From Candidatus Pacearchaeota archaeon (lineage in GTDB: Archaea; Nanobdellota; Nanobdellia; Pacearchaeales; GW2011-AR1): 32,725 bases of DNA. The stretch is taken from positions 1 through 32,725 of the forward strand of contig JAGLYK010000009.1 of the NCBI GenBank assembly GCA_023132255.1. Reading direction: 5' to 3'. Shown piece after piece: positions 12,190-26,751 of the stretch; position 1 is the first letter of the stretch; each line of letters opens with the position of its first letter. The notes beneath the pieces are model-generated. The model searched no databases, was not told the DNA's origin, and worked only from the letters and a program-made list of their open reading frames with translations. Made by a program: the position numbers and the translations under genes.

Positions 12190-12804
12190 TTAAACTCCAC
12201 GATAGTCAAGTTCATTATTAACAATCACAACAACCTGCGATGCAAAATAAACTTTTCCACCAACACTAACAGAAATTGCAATTTTCTTCAGTCTTTTCAA
12301 TTCCTTCTTTGGCAAACCTTCCTGGTCTCCTAAAATAAAAACACAATCTTTTGGAATTTCAGCTTTCCGAATATCTTCACCTTTTTTATCAAGAATAAAG
12401 ATGCCCTCTGTGTTTATATTTCCTCTCACAGAGGGTACACCCTTGGGTGCCAACTCCTCAACAACTTTCAAAAAACTTTTTTTCTCAACAAAACACCCTG
12501 GAAAAACCTCGTGCTTTTCACCTTCTTTATATTTGTACAAAATCTTTTTGATTAAAGTTCCAACATCTTTTTTTCTAATCACAGTGTTTTCTTTCACCTG
12601 AATCTCAATATGTTTTGGAGGGTCAGGCATTCCATAAAAAACAAAATGAAACTTCACATCTGTCCGAAAATCATGCGACAAAAACAAACCCTGAATCAAA
12701 CTATGAATCGCAATATCCATTCTTCCAGCCCTCATCAAACTATTCTGGCTAAGTGCTTTTCCAGAGGTAACTGCATCTTTTGAAAAATATATAAAATGTT
12801 TCAT
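12190..12804 (-). CDS. trmY: tRNA (pseudouridine(54)-N(1))-methyltransferase
   Basis: AGRMDIAIHSLIQGLFLSHDFRTDVKFHFVFYGMPDPP...VFILGDQEGLPKKE typical of TrmY. Confidence 0.88.
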   Translation of the reverse strand: MKHFIYFSKDAVTSGKALSQNSLMRAGRMDIAIHSLIQGLFLSHDFRTDVKFHFVFYGMPDPPKHIEIQVKENTVIRKKDVGTLIKKILYKYKEGEKHEVFPGCFVEKKSFLKVVEELAPKGVPSVRGNINTEGIFILDKKGEDIRKAEIPKDCVFILGDQEGLPKKELKRLKKIAISVSVGGKVYFASQVVVIVNNELDYRGV

Positions 12805-14210: not shown

Positions 14211-15188
14211 TTATGGTTGCATCACAAACTCAGATTTTGCAAAAATATGTTCTCCTAAAATTGTTTTGTAAATTCCCACAAATTTATTTTCGCAAAAAAC
14301 AATAATAATTTTGTCTTTTGCCCCTAGTAAAAATCTTCGTCGAAGATTTTTCGGGGTACGCCTGTGGTGCTCAATTTTAACATTTTTCACTAAATCTTTT
14401 TCATAAATTGGCTTGCCTGTAAAAATTTGTTGAAGTCTGTCTTTTTTTATTTCAACAATAGGGTGCAGTTCAGAAATAATTTCCCCAGGAATTATAATCT
14501 TTCTTAACAATTTATCCTCTTCTTTTTTGTATTCCTCAACTGCTCTTTCAAAATCATACAAATTTACACTTGGATATTTTGCATTATCTTCTAAAAAAAT
14601 TCCTGCTCTCACCCGACGAAGTTCCAACATATGCGCTCCAACTCCTAACTCCTTTCCCAAATCATCAATCAGCTTCCGAATATAAGTTCCTCCTTCAACT
14701 TCTGCTCTAAACAAAATATTTTTTTCAGATTTTTCAATTAATTCAAACTTCTTAATTTCTCTTTCTCTTTCCTGCCTTTTCACCCGCGATTTTACAGGAG
14801 GAGTTTGCAAAATCTTTCCAGTAAACTTTTCTTTAATTACTTTCTTAATTTTATCCAAGGAAACATCTTTATGAATTCTCATTATTCCAACATACTCTTT
14901 ATCTTCTCCTAAAAAATATCCTGTAAGTTTGCAAGCTCTATTCAACGCAACAGGTAAGACCCCTGTGACTTTTGGGTCAAGAGTTCCAAAATGAGAAGTT
15001 TTCCTCAACCCTAAACTTTTTCTCACAAAATCAGAAACATTAAACGATGTTGGACCACTTGGTTTATCAATATTTATAATTCCAAATTCCAAAAGTTCTT
15101 TGGTTGATTTATTCTTTTTTAAATCTGCCAGTGAAAATCTTGTATTTTCTCCAATTGTTTTTTTTGATTTTATTTTTTCTATGTCCAT
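14211..15188 (-). CDS. tRNA/rRNA pseudouridine synthase, archaeal Cbf5/TruB family with PUA domain
   Basis: GIINIDKPSGPTSFNVSDFVRK...SHFGTLDPKVTGVLPVALNRACKL; start set to ATG 15188 because the longer ORF overlaps glmS. Confidence 0.92.
   Translation of the reverse strand: MDIEKIKSKKTIGENTRFSLADLKKNKSTKELLEFGIINIDKPSGPTSFNVSDFVRKSLGLRKTSHFGTLDPKVTGVLPVALNRACKLTGYFLGEDKEYVGIMRIHKDVSLDKIKKVIKEKFTGKILQTPPVKSRVKRQEREREIKKFELIEKSEKNILFRAEVEGGTYIRKLIDDLGKELGVGAHMLELRRVRAGIFLEDNAKYPSVNLYDFERAVEEYKKEEDKLLRKIIIPGEIISELHPIVEIKKDRLQQIFTGKPIYEKDLVKNVKIEHHRRTPKNLRRRFLLGAKDKIIIVFCENKFVGIYKTILGEHIFAKSEFVMQP
14321..14369 (-). repeat. Palindromic in-frame element, copy 1 (inside the Cbf5/TruB PUA region)
   Basis: cccctagtaaaaatcttcgtcgaagatttttcggggtacgcctgtggtg; near-identical to 25671..25719. 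Confidence 0.85.
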
Positions 15189-15241
15189 TTTGTGTATTTT
15201 AGTTCCACAATATTTATAAATCTTTAAAGAATTTTCAAATA

Positions 15242-17020
15242 ATGTGCGGGATAATTGGTTACTGGAATAAAGAATTAGAAGCATTCCCAATACTTCTTGA
15301 ATCTCTAAAAAAATTAGAATATCGAGGTTATGATAGTTTTGGCTTTGCAACATCTTTTGAAAATAAGTTACTTACAGAGAGACAAGTGGGAAAAGTAAGT
15401 TCTGCAAAATGCCCTATCTTACCAGGAAAAATAGGAATTGGGCATACGAGATGGGCAACGCACGGAAAAGTTACAGAAAAAAACACACATCCCCACAGAG
15501 ATTGTTCAGGAAAAATAGCAGTTGTTCACAATGGAATAATTGAAAATTTTCAGGAATTAAAAAATTCTTTATTGAACAAAAATCATAACTTCTTGAGTGA
15601 AACAGATACAGAAGTAATTTCTCATTTAATTGAAGAAAAACTTGAACAGGGAATGAATCTTAAAGATGCAGTTATAGAAATTGGTTCTTTGTTAAAAGGA
15701 AGGAACTCTTTTGTTGTTTTAAACTCTGAGACTAAAGAAATAATTGCTTTCAGAAAAGGTTCACCTCTTATAGTCGGGATAACAAAAGAAAATGGAACGT
15801 CTGAAGTTTTTATTGCATCAGATATCCAAGCATTTTTAGATAAAACAAAAAAGGTAATGTATTTGGATGATAATCAGATTGTAATTATAAAAGAAAATCC
15901 GGAGTTTTATAATGTTAAGACAAAAGATAAAATAGAAAAGAGATTAATTAAGATTGCTTTAGATACGAAAGATGCTGAAAAAGGAGATTATTCTCATTAC
16001 ATGTTAAAAGAAATTATGGAGCAAAAAGAAACTTTGGCAAAGGCGATTAATCAAAATGATAAAGATCTTATGCATGTATCTCAAGAAATTAATAATGCAA
16101 GAGGTGTGTTTTTTGTTGGGTGTGGAACAGCTGCGAGGGTTTGCCACACAGCAGAATATATTTTTTCCAAAATCGCAGACAAGCATGTTAATTTTATTCC
16201 TGCTTCAGAGTTTGAAAACTACAAACACTTTTTGCTTCCGGAAACTTTAGTAATTGCAGTTTCACAAAGCGGAGAAACAGCAGATGTATTAGAAGCTTTA
16301 GAAATCGCAAAACAAAGAGGCTCTAAAATTATTTCAATAATTAACACCCAGAGTTCTTCAATAGACAAAATTTCTGATTACACTTTTTTAATAAAAGCCG
16401 GACCTGAAAAAGCAGTTGCCTCAACAAAAGCAACAACTTCTCAGATTGTTGTTTTAATTTTACTGGCTTATGCTTGCGCAGGAAAATTAAAAGAAGGAGA
16501 GAGATTTTTAATTGATGTTGCCGGAAAAGTAAACGATATGCTAAATCCCCGCTATGAGGAGCACATAAAAAAACTGGCAGAGATAATTTATCAAAGAGAA
16601 AATATTTTTATTATAGGAAGGGGTATAAATTATCCAATGGCTTTAGAATCTGCAATTAAGATTATGGAAGTGAGTTATATTCATGCACAGGGTTTTGCAG
16701 GAGGGGAATTAAAACACGGGCCAATTGCCTTAATAGAAAAAGCCACACCTGTTATAGTTTTAGTGGCAAACGACGACGTCAGACAGGAAATAATAAGCAA
16801 TGCAATAGAAGTAAAATCCCGGGGAGCTTATGTTATTGGTGTCTCCCCTGAAAACAACCCAATCTTTGATTATTGGATAAAAACCCCTGATGTAAACGGG
16901 GAAGCCTCATCAATAATTAATTTAGTCGCTGTTCAACTTCTGGCTTATTACCTGGGAATTTTAAGAGGACATGATGTTGATTATCCAAGGTCTTTAGCAA
17001 AATCAGTTACTGTTAAATAA
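15242..17020 (+). CDS. glmS: Glutamine--fructose-6-phosphate aminotransferase (isomerizing)
   Basis: MCGIIGYWN...LEYRGYDSFGFAT; GHTRWATHG; SIS domains with SQSGETADVLEAL and C-terminal DYPRSLAKSVTVK. Confidence 0.96.
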   Translation: MCGIIGYWNKELEAFPILLESLKKLEYRGYDSFGFATSFENKLLTERQVGKVSSAKCPILPGKIGIGHTRWATHGKVTEKNTHPHRDCSGKIAVVHNGIIENFQELKNSLLNKNHNFLSETDTEVISHLIEEKLEQGMNLKDAVIEIGSLLKGRNSFVVLNSETKEIIAFRKGSPLIVGITKENGTSEVFIASDIQAFLDKTKKVMYLDDNQIVIIKENPEFYNVKTKDKIEKRLIKIALDTKDAEKGDYSHYMLKEIMEQKETLAKAINQNDKDLMHVSQEINNARGVFFVGCGTAARVCHTAEYIFSKIADKHVNFIPASEFENYKHFLLPETLVIAVSQSGETADVLEALEIAKQRGSKIISIINTQSSSIDKISDYTFLIKAGPEKAVASTKATTSQIVVLILLAYACAGKLKEGERFLIDVAGKVNDMLNPRYEEHIKKLAEIIYQRENIFIIGRGINYPMALESAIKIMEVSYIHAQGFAGGELKHGPIALIEKATPVIVLVANDDVRQEIISNAIEVKSRGAYVIGVSPENNPIFDYWIKTPDVNGEASSIINLVAVQLLAYYLGILRGHDVDYPRSLAKSVTVK

Positions 17021-22513: not shown

Positions 22514-23265
22514 TTTTTAGCCAATATCATAAACCTACCTGTTTCAAATTTTAATTTACCTTTTTTTTCTAATTTAACTTGTAATTTCTTTAGATATTTA
22601 ATATGTGTTTTAACACTAAATCCATTTACTATCCAAGGAATAGCTTTTAGATAATATACTATTGCACCAACATCTTTGAAAATCCTCTTCCCTGCCCATT
22701 TTTTACTTTTAATAATTTTAAAACCTTCTTTTGAAAGTTGTTTACTATACTTCCTTAATGTTATATCACTAAATTTCCTTTTTGCTTTGAATTCTTTAAC
22801 AAGATCTTGCGAATCTTCCGCCCCAGTAACTTGTTGTGTAAAGAATACTCCTCCATTTTTTAAAATTCTATATAATTCTTTTGCATTCATAGCACCATGC
22901 CTATTTAACACAAGATCAAATTCTTCATTTTTGAAAGGAAGTTTGGAGCCTCTACATTCCACGACTTTTACACCTAAAGGATTAAGTTTTCTTCTTGCAA
23001 TAAGTATGTTGGGTTTATATCCTTCATATGCTACAGCTTTTTTTGGAAAAGGTTTAAGAGAGGAAAAGATTTCTCCACCCCCGGTTTCCATGTCTAAAAC
23101 AGATTTTGATTTTTTCATAAGTTTTTTAGCTATTTTTATATAGTCCCAAGGAGGTGTTTGTTCAATCATTCTTCCTTTGAGGTAAGAAAAATTCCATCCT
23201 TTAAAAACCGCTTTCTCATCTTTTTTCCAGTTTTCAATTTTAGAAATCACTTCACACTCCCCCAT
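22510..23265 (-). CDS. SAM-dependent class I methyltransferase
   Basis: SVLDMETGGGEIFSSL...VAYEGYKPNILIARRKL...GSKLPFKNEEFDLVLNRHGAMNAKELYRILKNGGVFFTQQV. Confidence 0.88.
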   Translation of the reverse strand: MGECEVISKIENWKKDEKAVFKGWNFSYLKGRMIEQTPPWDYIKIAKKLMKKSKSVLDMETGGGEIFSSLKPFPKKAVAYEGYKPNILIARRKLNPLGVKVVECRGSKLPFKNEEFDLVLNRHGAMNAKELYRILKNGGVFFTQQVTGAEDSQDLVKEFKAKRKFSDITLRKYSKQLSKEGFKIIKSKKWAGKRIFKDVGAIVYYLKAIPWIVNGFSVKTHIKYLKKLQVKLEKKGKLKFETGRFMILAKK

Positions 23266-24512
23266 TGTTTTAAAGCCTCTTCAAGTTCAACATGTGTCTT
23301 TGCATATTCTTTCAAAGATTTTTTCTTTAAAACAGCATCAACTGCCTGACGCATTGCAATAGCTCCTGCTTCTGTTCCGAATTTATGCCCGTGAATTCCT
23401 CCACCTGCCTGAATCACTAAATCCTTCCCAAGATTCTTAATCAAAAATGGAATATGCCCCGGATGCAACCCTCCGGACGAAACACCTAAAACAGGTTTAA
23501 TGTTTTCCCATTTCTGTTCTAATCTTTTTTTAGTTGCTTTAACTTTTTTCATTTCAATATCTTCTTTAATTTCTTTAATTTCTTTAATCTTCCCTTCTAA
23601 CTTCCCAATTCCTGTTCCAATATGAATCTGGTCAACCCCAATCAGCCTCGCAAAATCTGCAATAACCATCATTGAAATTCCGTGCTCAGGATTCCTAGTA
23701 AAAGCAGCATGCATTGCCCGATGCGCATGAATCGCCATCTTGAAATTCGCCTCCCGCAAAGTCTGCAAAGCTGCCCAACCAGAAGTCAAAATATCAATCA
23801 TCACATACTTGCCCCCCTGCTTTTCAACCAACTGCGCACGTTTAATCATCTCTTTTGTTTCTGCAGTTACATTCACTAAATAAGCTTTTTTTTCACCTGT
23901 TTCTTTTTCAGCTTTGTCAGCCATCTCCAAAGTCTTGCTCAATCTTTTTTCAAAACTATTAAATTTCTGCGACGCCAAATTCTCGTCGTCCTTCACAATA
24001 TCACAACCTCCTTTCCAGGACTCATAAGCACTCTGCGCATGCTCCTCCTCATTCAACCCCAACTTCGGTTTTATAATTGTACCAACCAACGGCCTTGTTT
24101 TAATTTTCATCATTTTTCTAATACTCTCTATGCCGTATTTTGGTCCAGAAAAACTTTTCAAAATTGACTTGGGAAAACTCACATCTTCCAGCCGAATTGA
24201 CCTGACTGCTTTCATGCCCATTATATTTCCTGCTATCGACGACAAAATATTCGGAACATTATCTTTCTCAAACAAGTCCTGAGGATAAGCAATCTTCACC
24301 CAATTACCACGAATGGAAAAAACCTTTGCCTTTAATTTTTCAACATAATCTACTTTACCTCTCGCAACTTTTGTCCATGTTCCAACACTGCTCTCCAACG
24401 CAACAGTATTCGCTGCTTTTTCCAAAGAAATTTTATTTGGCATAATTTTAAACAAACAAATCAAATCATTCTTCGGCTTATATTTCAAATTTATAAATTC
24501 AAATTTTTTCAT
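23247..24512 (-). CDS. rbcL: RuBisCO large chain, form III-like
   Basis: ALESSVGTWT, GTIIKPKLGL, GGCDIVKDDENL, HAHRAMHAAFTR, QIHIGTGIGKLEG, GVSSGGLHPGHIP, QAGGGIHGHKFGTEAGA; expected catalytic residues present. Confidence 0.95.
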   Translation of the reverse strand: MKKFEFINLKYKPKNDLICLFKIMPNKISLEKAANTVALESSVGTWTKVARGKVDYVEKLKAKVFSIRGNWVKIAYPQDLFEKDNVPNILSSIAGNIMGMKAVRSIRLEDVSFPKSILKSFSGPKYGIESIRKMMKIKTRPLVGTIIKPKLGLNEEEHAQSAYESWKGGCDIVKDDENLASQKFNSFEKRLSKTLEMADKAEKETGEKKAYLVNVTAETKEMIKRAQLVEKQGGKYVMIDILTSGWAALQTLREANFKMAIHAHRAMHAAFTRNPEHGISMMVIADFARLIGVDQIHIGTGIGKLEGKIKEIKEIKEDIEMKKVKATKKRLEQKWENIKPVLGVSSGGLHPGHIPFLIKNLGKDLVIQAGGGIHGHKFGTEAGAIAMRQAVDAVLKKKSLKEYAKTHVELEEALKQWGSVK

Positions 24513-25338: not shown

Positions 25339-26751
25339 TTACAATTTTTTTATTTTACTTCCTCCACCAACATCTTCAACACTAAAACCTAATTTCTTAA
25401 TTTTATTTCTTAATTCATCTGCTTTTTTAAAATCTCTTTTCTTCCGGGCATCTTCTCTTTCTTTGACTAATTTTTTAACATCATCTGGGATCTTAATTTT
25501 TTCCTTTTTCAACAAATCCAATCCAAAAACTTCATCCATCTTTTTTATTGTCTGAATTTTTCCAACTGCCTTTTCATCACGAACCAATTTCCACAAGACC
25601 TGTAAAGCCCGGGGGGTATTCAAATCATCATTAATCGCAGTTTCAAATTCTTTCAAATATTCTTTATTTGCCCCTTGTAAAAATTTTTTTCTAAAATTTT
25701 TCGGGGTACGCCTGTGGTGTTTTTTATCTTCTTTTAATTCTAAGATTATGTTTTTCAATCTTTGATAAGCATTTTTTGCAGAGCTTAACTTCTTCTCACT
25801 AAAAATTAATTTTTTCTTGTAATGTGTCAGCAAACACAAATATTTAAATTCAAGAGGCTTAAATCTTTTTCTTTCTAATTCAGAAAGTGTTAAAATATCT
25901 CCTGAACTTTTTGACATTTTGCCTTTTTCAAGAATAAGATGGTTTGAATGCAGCCAGTAATTTACCCAGGGTTTTTTCCCAGTTGCAGATTCTGATTGTG
26001 CAATTTCATTTGTATGATGAACAGGAATATGATCTATTCCTCCTGTGTGAATATCAAATTGTTCTCCTAATTCTTTTATAGACATGGCAGAACATTCTAT
26101 ATGCCAGCCAGGAAACCCAACTCCCCAGGGAGAATTCCATTCCTGCTGTCTCACTCCTGGCTTCTCAGAAAACTTCCAAAGAGCAAAATCTGTTTTATTT
26201 TTCTTCCCCCCAAATTTAATTCTTTTGGCTTTTTTCAATCCTTTAATATTCAAACGAGCAAGTTTTCCGTAATCTTTTAATTTAGAAGTATCAAAATAAA
26301 TCCCGTCAGAAGTTTTGTAAGTATAACCTTTTTCTTCAAGTTTTTTTACTAATTCAATTTGTTCCCCAATATATTCTGTTGCCCATGTCCATTTGTCAGG
26401 CATAGTAAAATTTAGTTTTGTTAAATCATTTTTAAAAGCATCAAAATAATGCCGCGAAATTTCTTTTGCAGTTTTTCTTTCTTTCTTTGCAGCCTTCTCA
26501 ATTTTGTCCTCTCCCTCATCAGCGTCAGAAGTCAAATGCCCGACATCAGTAACATTAATAATATGCTTCACATTATAATTATTAAATAAAAGAATTCTCT
26601 TAAGAATATCTTCAAAAACATATCTTCTTATATTTCCAATATGCTGATACCAATAAACTGTGGGACCGCAGCCATACATTCCAACAAAGTTTTTCCTAAT
26701 CGGTTTAAACAACTCTTTTTTCCTCGTTAATGTATTATATAATTTTAACAT
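25339..26751 (-). CDS. cysS: Cysteinyl-tRNA synthetase
   Basis: MYGCGPTVYWYQHIGNIRRYVFEDIL, INVTDVGHL, GWHIECSAMS, HHTNEIAQSE, KMSKSSGDILTL. Confidence 0.96.
   Translation of the reverse strand: MLKLYNTLTRKKELFKPIRKNFVGMYGCGPTVYWYQHIGNIRRYVFEDILKRILLFNNYNVKHIINVTDVGHLTSDADEGEDKIEKAAKKERKTAKEISRHYFDAFKNDLTKLNFTMPDKWTWATEYIGEQIELVKKLEEKGYTYKTSDGIYFDTSKLKDYGKLARLNIKGLKKAKRIKFGGKKNKTDFALWKFSEKPGVRQQEWNSPWGVGFPGWHIECSAMSIKELGEQFDIHTGGIDHIPVHHTNEIAQSESATGKKPWVNYWLHSNHLILEKGKMSKSSGDILTLSELERKRFKPLEFKYLCLLTHYKKKLIFSEKKLSSAKNAYQRLKNIILELKEDKKHHRRTPKNFRKKFLQGANKEYLKEFETAINDDLNTPRALQVLWKLVRDEKAVGKIQTIKKMDEVFGLDLLKKEKIKIPDDVKKLVKEREDARKKRDFKKADELRNKIKKLGFSVEDVGGGSKIKKL
25671..25719 (-). repeat. Palindromic in-frame element, copy 2 (inside cysS)
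   Basis: ccccttgtaaaaatttttttctaaaatttttcggggtacgcctgtggtg; near-identical to 14321..14369. Confidence 0.85.

Follow-up and report, generated by a model that had tools for sequence, protein, structure and literature searches.

A 51-nt segment that occurs twice in the 32,725-nt stretch of Pacearchaeota DNA analysed here (the window) most probably represents a mobile element, dispersed and non-autonomous, in which two hairpins abut, and is best seen as selfish DNA pre-adapted to coding sequence. The element is multicopy and polymorphic between congeneric genomes. Its copies are inserted cleanly at R^A, nest within one another, conserve their pairing and have frame-neutral lengths. All the genomes behind these results are MAGs.

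Results

Copies of the element in the window

We observed both copies at the places given by the original prediction, in Cbf5/TruB and in the cysteinyl-tRNA synthetase (CysRS), and both genes are supported by Pfam (Table 1). The two copies are read in the same frame and have a self-complementary middle with compensation, as had been described. The length had been given as 49 bp, but closed hairpins and empty sites set it at 51 nt for each copy. In the sense direction both read CACCACAGGCG-TACCCCG-[arm-loop-arm]-AC[T/A]AGGGGCA. A third member of the family, located in TrmY, had been overlooked, as had the wider family. Each of the three host genes in the window serves tRNA modification or tRNA charging.

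Table 1. Element copies, their hairpins and their host genes in the window.
Feature	Position	Strand	Support
Element copy 1, 51 nt, 17 codons, peptide HHRRTPKNLRRRFLLGA, in Cbf5/TruB	14319..14369	-	covariance model R1 76.2 bits, E 4.1e-19
Head hairpin of copy 1: sense CACC-ACA-GGCG; other strand CGCC-TGT-GGTG with G.T pair	14359..14369	-	
Main hairpin of copy 1: TA-CCCC-G-AAAAATCTTC...GAAGATTTTT-ACTA-GGGG-CA	14319..14358	-	
Host gene, Cbf5/TruB family pseudouridine synthase; copy 1 near the C-terminal (PUA-like) end	14211..15353	-	PF01509, PF16198
Element copy 2, 51 nt, 17 codons, peptide HHRRTPKNFRKKFLQGA, in CysRS	25669..25719	-	R1 74.7 bits, E 1.1e-18
Head hairpin of copy 2	25709..25719	-	
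Main hairpin of copy 2	25669..25708	-	
Host gene, cysteinyl-tRNA synthetase; copy 2 just upstream of the DALR domain	25339..26751	-	PF01406; DALR_2 from residue 378
Element copy 3, 48-nt subfamily CACCCAAGGGTG-TA-CCCTCTGTG...CACAGAGGG-CA, peptide APKGVPSVRGNINTEG, in TrmY	12402..12449	-	
Host gene, TrmY-type SAM-dependent RNA methyltransferase	12190..12804	-	PF04013

The constant 18-mer CGGGGTACGCCTGTGGTG had two matches in the window, while 0.00 were expected from shuffled sequences. With up to three mismatches allowed, it had 10 matches in the 625-kb genome and none in the reversed control. The stems in the window folded better than shuffled sequences (z = -3.7 and -3.1, window plus strand). 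The window also contains archaeal LSU rRNA and RNase P RNA. An ORF at 23247-24512 (-) has, by eye, the look of an archaeal RuBisCO large subunit.

Copy number and distribution

Our searches give a lower bound of at least 20 copies in the 625-kb host genome. A relaxed pattern had 13 matches in this genome, 12 in a congener and none in the control. Covariance model R1 matched 28 of the 207 genomes of the order (approximately 22 of them firmly), all belonging to one family, and the highest number of matches in a genome was 24. When 85,462 prokaryote genomes were scanned with the main-form pattern, 30 contigs were returned, all of them titled Pacearchaeota, Nanoarchaeota or "archaeon" MAGs. The same pattern had no match in 2.9 million viral contigs. 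A viral vehicle was therefore rejected; the lone match to the head sequence, in a GC-rich phage, had no second hairpin and was judged to be due to chance.

We also used a scanner for two abutting hairpins with TA-CC...GG-CA. It detected 88 sites in the fetched loci and two in the reversed control, and as many of these loci were picked for carrying copies, the figure is no genome-wide density. Further copies, which the original prediction had proposed to look for, were thus found genome-wide by the 18-mer, by the pattern and by the covariance model. The outcome named there as contrary, no further copies together with the same segments in orthologues of distant relatives, was not what we observed.

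Architecture, covariation and subfamilies

The element consists of a head hairpin of 11-14 nt (CACC..GG[T/C]G) and a main hairpin, TA-CCC...GGG-CA, with no nucleotides between them. The form of the main hairpin is TA-CCCY-...-RGGG-CA, and its stem is variable and covarying. Among the variants of the head were CACC-ACA-GGCG, CACCC-AA-GGGTG, ACAC-TTC-GTGT and others. The termini are common to all subfamilies and the stems are not. Simple copies detected by the double-hairpin scanner were 39-54 nt long, mostly 39, 45, 48, 51 or 54 nt; the 39-nt family was recovered by this general scanner.

A covariance model had been proposed as a check, and once built it showed stems that covary strongly. In the main hairpin (alignment A1), 10 of the 16 pairs vary on both sides, and double-changed cells numbered 67 compared with 14 after shuffling. 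Pairing in A1 amounted to 98.1% and dropped to 55-60% once the partners were slid by one or two columns. The copies are not independent, so the statistics of covariation, and those of polarity given below, are approximate.

In every copy, the antisense strand has G.T at pair 2-42 where the sense strand has A.C. The search pattern leaves pair 6-38 free, and there 14 copies have G.T on the antisense strand and none shows the converse (two-sided p = 1e-4 assuming independent copies, which they are not). Folding was stronger on the strand complementary to the mRNA (-19.4 vs -15.2 and -15.1 vs -10.0 kcal/mol). Two features point to this strand as the one that folds, as DNA or as RNA; antisense-strand folding is suggested because of the G.T polarity at pairs 2-42 and 6-38.

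Smaller modules were observed inside other elements. Module M (CACC..GGTG-CGAGAA-CCTC..GAGG, 30 or 42 nt) sits in frame between the TA and the CCC of other elements (L073, L223, L197-L204, and L218 compared with L210). Matches resembling M numbered 22, compared with three in the control; 19 of them were in sense open frames and none in antisense ones. Module N (a hairpin plus ATGACCTC..GAGG) was seen within other elements or genes (L021, L067 on the minus strand near 1880, L205, L209 and L229), and it measures 33 nt in the single case that has an insert-free congener. Genome G171 differs from the other genomes: its copies, up to 24 in number, have a longer head (CACCACCATTGGCG, 54 nt) and many of them lie in spacers (L044, L055, L058, L063, L065, L068). 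No Rfam match above the gathering score was found at the element, and its identity as an Rfam family, a tRNA or an attC-like site was rejected for want of a match.

Host genes, reading frame and orientation

Sense frames of at least 120 codons held 68 of the 87 non-redundant scanner matches, and the sole antisense case was an unrelated chance match. The hosts include synthetases (CysRS, LeuRS, GluRS/GlnRS, MetRS, PheRS-beta and an Ile/Leu/Met/Val-type synthetase), GatA, GatB/E and GatD, and Kae1, at three sites in three genomes. Further hosts are Trm5, TYW1, TrmY, an Elp3-like radical SAM protein, Dph2, a PP-loop protein, TopoI, the PolD large subunit, TFE and ribosomal proteins. Spacers and short frames held most of the copies that had no long frame, and no recognised gene is split by any of these.

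All 57 screened copies in clear genes were sense, in frame and stop-free, while stop codons alone predict 54% sense; because open frames served to select the genic set, the count of in-frame copies is to some extent circular, and the empty-site cases are not affected. A target resembling R^AAA is 3.7-4.8 times commoner on coding strands. The mean hydropathy of the sense peptides in use was -0.95, compared with +0.10 for open antisense frames. Stops, target skew and peptide polarity account for most, perhaps not all, of the sense bias. After stops and target skew, 82% sense would be expected and the observed 57 of 57 still has p of approximately 1e-5; therefore selection or a further mechanism must add to the bias.

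Compensatory changes were present between orthologous copies. Two T-A pairs were replaced by C-G in the T2SSF gene of two congeners, and one pair changed in GluRS/GlnRS of two genera.

Empty sites, nesting and insertion target

The MetRS genes of congeners differ by exactly 48 nt, which is the element (..G^AAAATAA..). In GatE the congeners differ by 51 nt and the flanks are equal in length. For GatA, TrmY and Elp3, one congener of the two has no insert; a few additional bases are present at TrmY and Elp3. A shortened remnant is kept in the CCA-transferase gene of one congener. In PheRS-beta, different subfamilies of 39 and 51 nt occupy the same nucleotide in two congeners (L297 of G000 and L056 of G001), which may reflect either cassette exchange or a hot spot.

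Nesting was observed as well. An outer copy holds a 45-nt copy within its loop (G000:C5, G001:C1), and removing the inner copy restores the usual 40-nt outer form. Length differences between orthologous copies were due to inserts of 18, 30, 33 or 42 nt, each length being divisible by three.

The alignment of CysRS lacked 17 aa in the congener and in most relatives, and among the aligned orthologues only G004 has the insert; G172 and G100 also have one at this site. The copy in the window is simple, those of G004 and G172 contain module M, and that of G100 contains another short module. The proposed comparison with relatives thus showed the CysRS insert to be lineage-specific. The Cbf5 site is a variable loop with other inserts in relatives, and therefore its empty-site case is weaker than that of CysRS, MetRS, GatE or Kae1. 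The PUA loop of Cbf5 in relatives can carry another type of insert with a common TTCGTCCAAGC[G/T]TGGCCAAA (L131, G001:C15, near 170-260; L112, G015, near 2180-2240). Contig C23 of G001 stops within a copy of the 51-nt type at this same loop; given the other insert type there, G001 seems to hold two strain versions.

Solved structures, also proposed as a check, were informative for other hosts, whose homologues are free of the insert: the gap was exactly 17 aa in Kae1 (2IVN), 16 aa in GatE (2D6F) and 11 aa in TrmY (2QMM). CysRS structures had only short gaps at the insert site because the loop there is variable, and the alignment with Cbf5 structures reaches only up to the PUA region, so these two comparisons do not decide.

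The element is inserted at R^A. Among the 57 screened copies, R was at position -1 in 54 and A at position +1 in 48. The junctions were clean, with no detectable target duplication; an ambiguity of one A remains.

Search for the mobilizer

We examined Y1 transposases and reverse transcriptases across the 207 genomes and found neither a mobilizing enzyme nor an autonomous copy. Y1 genes were present in 12 of the 28 genomes with the element and in 68 of the 179 others (Fisher p = 0.68, genomes incomplete). A motif scan of the nine Y1 loci above the cut-off in 16 genomes saw no element-like ends, and the lone element-like stretch in the loci scanned, in G135, lay at a good distance from the Y1 gene. 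The one IS200-type Y1 transposase gene of G000 (L270, approximately 1280-1890, G000:C18) is flanked by hairpins of its own, which do not resemble the element. The Y1 transposase of the host was rejected as the mobilizer, as its terminal hairpins differ from the element ends. Reverse transcriptase was also rejected: none was found in G000 and G001, and it was not enriched in element genomes (8 of 28 vs 76 of 179, p = 0.21).

Discussion

The reading of these segments as mobile elements, put forward in the original prediction, is supported by the genome-wide copies, the lineage-specificity of the CysRS insert, the empty sites in congeners, the covariation and the insert-free structures. The element would move as folded single-stranded DNA, more likely as the strand complementary to the mRNA, and the enzyme that mobilizes it would act in trans. 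The survivors in genes would be the copies that leave the reading frame intact and contribute a polar loop. Judging from the conservation of frame, the sense frames probably encode short polar stretches rich in Pro, Gly and Lys, translated as surface loops. Persistence in essential genes may be explained by a length that is usually a multiple of three and by short, polar sense peptides. The compensatory changes in orthologous copies may stem from template-switch palindrome correction or from conversion by other copies, rather than from selection on RNA.

We considered whether the hairpins are skipped instead of translated, that is, excised from the mRNA by the tRNA splicing endonuclease like bulge-helix-bulge (BHB) introns, or hopped by ribosomes. 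Stable hairpins of approximately 50 nt within essential genes would fit this, as would the compensatory changes at orthologous sites (T2SSF of two congeners, GluRS/GlnRS of two genera), and Cbf5 pre-mRNA is an intron carrier in Crenarchaeota. However, skipping would require neither that clear genic copies be stop-free and in frame, nor that nested inserts come in multiples of three, nor that frame-less copies lie mostly in spacers without splitting a recognised gene. The structure is also weaker on the mRNA strand (-15.2 vs -19.4 kcal/mol), and the internal loop of 1 vs 4 nt is not the two 3-nt bulges around 4 bp of a BHB intron, so that we regard skipping as quite improbable. Very improbable, in our opinion, is the local generation of palindromes, in which replication template switching makes and perfects hairpins at prone sites without transposition: a local process spreads no sequence genome-wide, while here conserved termini and whole 39-, 48- and 51-nt families occur near verbatim at unrelated loci. 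Such a process would nevertheless improve stems to perfection and produce compensatory changes in orthologous copies, and several sites do carry different inserts in different genomes.

The inserts might instead be adaptive or domesticated, as regulatory hairpins or as functional loops of tRNA-related enzymes, and be kept by selection. Host genes tend towards tRNA and translation functions, those of the window being all of this kind, and certain sites are retained from one genus to another (CysRS in four genomes, GluRS/GlnRS in G000 and G014). Against this, presence is patchy even among congeners, the position of the insert can differ inside a single protein family (three sites for Kae1 in three genomes), one site can carry unrelated subfamilies (PheRS-beta) and copies are found in spacers too; we therefore think domestication improbable. 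The peptides of Cbf5 and CysRS do resemble each other, because both copies are in the same frame. The chance that this likeness is ancestral or coincidental is negligible, as it is refuted by the copies in unrelated genes, other frames and spacers, by the empty sites and by the controls.

Beyond the preferred reading as selfish mobile DNA, a dedicated Pacearchaeota system might move folded single-stranded double-hairpin cassettes directionally into coding strands (at R^A) and might swap cassettes at occupied sites. The 51/54-, 48- and 39-nt forms and modules M and N would then be selected for translation and would continually add loops to essential, mostly tRNA-related proteins. We put this forward as speculation, possible and somewhat doubtful.

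In-frame coding palindromes have hitherto been treated as peculiar to Rickettsia and its relatives. The system described here is archaeal, presumably independent and much shorter, and with its empty sites in congeners, nested copies and covarying stems it means that the phenomenon is not limited to one bacterial lineage. Its precise boundaries and target rule make the question of how such elements move testable. It offers a concrete route for reduced genomes to gain new peptide segments in essential enzymes, and it will confuse the annotation and structure prediction of DPANN proteins.

Comparison with known systems

We found no precedent from archaea in general or Pacearchaeota in particular in the open-access literature, which was the coverage of the search. 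The parallel with Rickettsia palindromic elements (RPEs), drawn in the original prediction, holds for the way the element works and not for membership. RPEs (Ogata et al. 2000, 2002) are described in PMC10969869 as elements of approximately 150 bp in ten families that form in-frame fusions. Like them, the element is palindromic, multi-family, non-autonomous and presumably translated, has no known mobilizer, and occurs as an in-frame insertion in numerous unrelated and often essential genes of a reduced genome (PMC10969869). It differs from these bacterial elements in being archaeal and 39-54 nt long, in its CACC..GGYG-TA-CCC..GGG-CA ends, in its two abutting hairpins and in its self-nesting (PMC10969869). 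An RPE would be expected to measure approximately 100-150 bp and to have a Rickettsia host, whereas the rRNA and RNase P of the window are archaeal and the element was found only in Pacearchaeota/Nanoarchaeota-type MAGs. Since length, architecture and host differ from the RPE description, we do not file the element as an RPE.

In Nematomorpha mitochondria, perfect inverted repeats of up to 284 bp lie within protein-coding genes, according to PMC6649704. The likeness to that account is in the inverted repeats within coding genes; here they are short dispersed copies of consensus families (PMC6649704). REP/BIME sequences are short imperfect palindromes of 20-40 bp with GTAG or CGTC tags and RAYT Y1 transposases (PMC3733652). 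The element resembles them as a short imperfect palindrome with one structured strand, and differs in that it has no GTAG or CGTC at the hairpin foot in alignment A1 (PMC3733652). It is also mainly genic, while REPs are extragenic, and no association with Y1 was apparent in the incomplete genomes compared.

Hairpins of approximately 50 nt inside open reading frames are known from the mitochondrial byp elements of yeast and the hop of phage T4 gene 60. In contrast to these, the element keeps frame and a stop-free reading in clear genic copies, and therefore bypassing is not needed. MITEs derived from IS200/IS605 (palindrome-associated elements) have terminal hairpins, cause no target duplication and prefer a site 5' of the insertion. 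The element is far shorter than these MITEs and has no likeness to the ends of the Y1 element present in its host. Its clean junctions and its insertion at R^A agree with their lack of target duplication and their 5' site, and the IS200/IS605-derived MITEs are the nearest mechanistic model.
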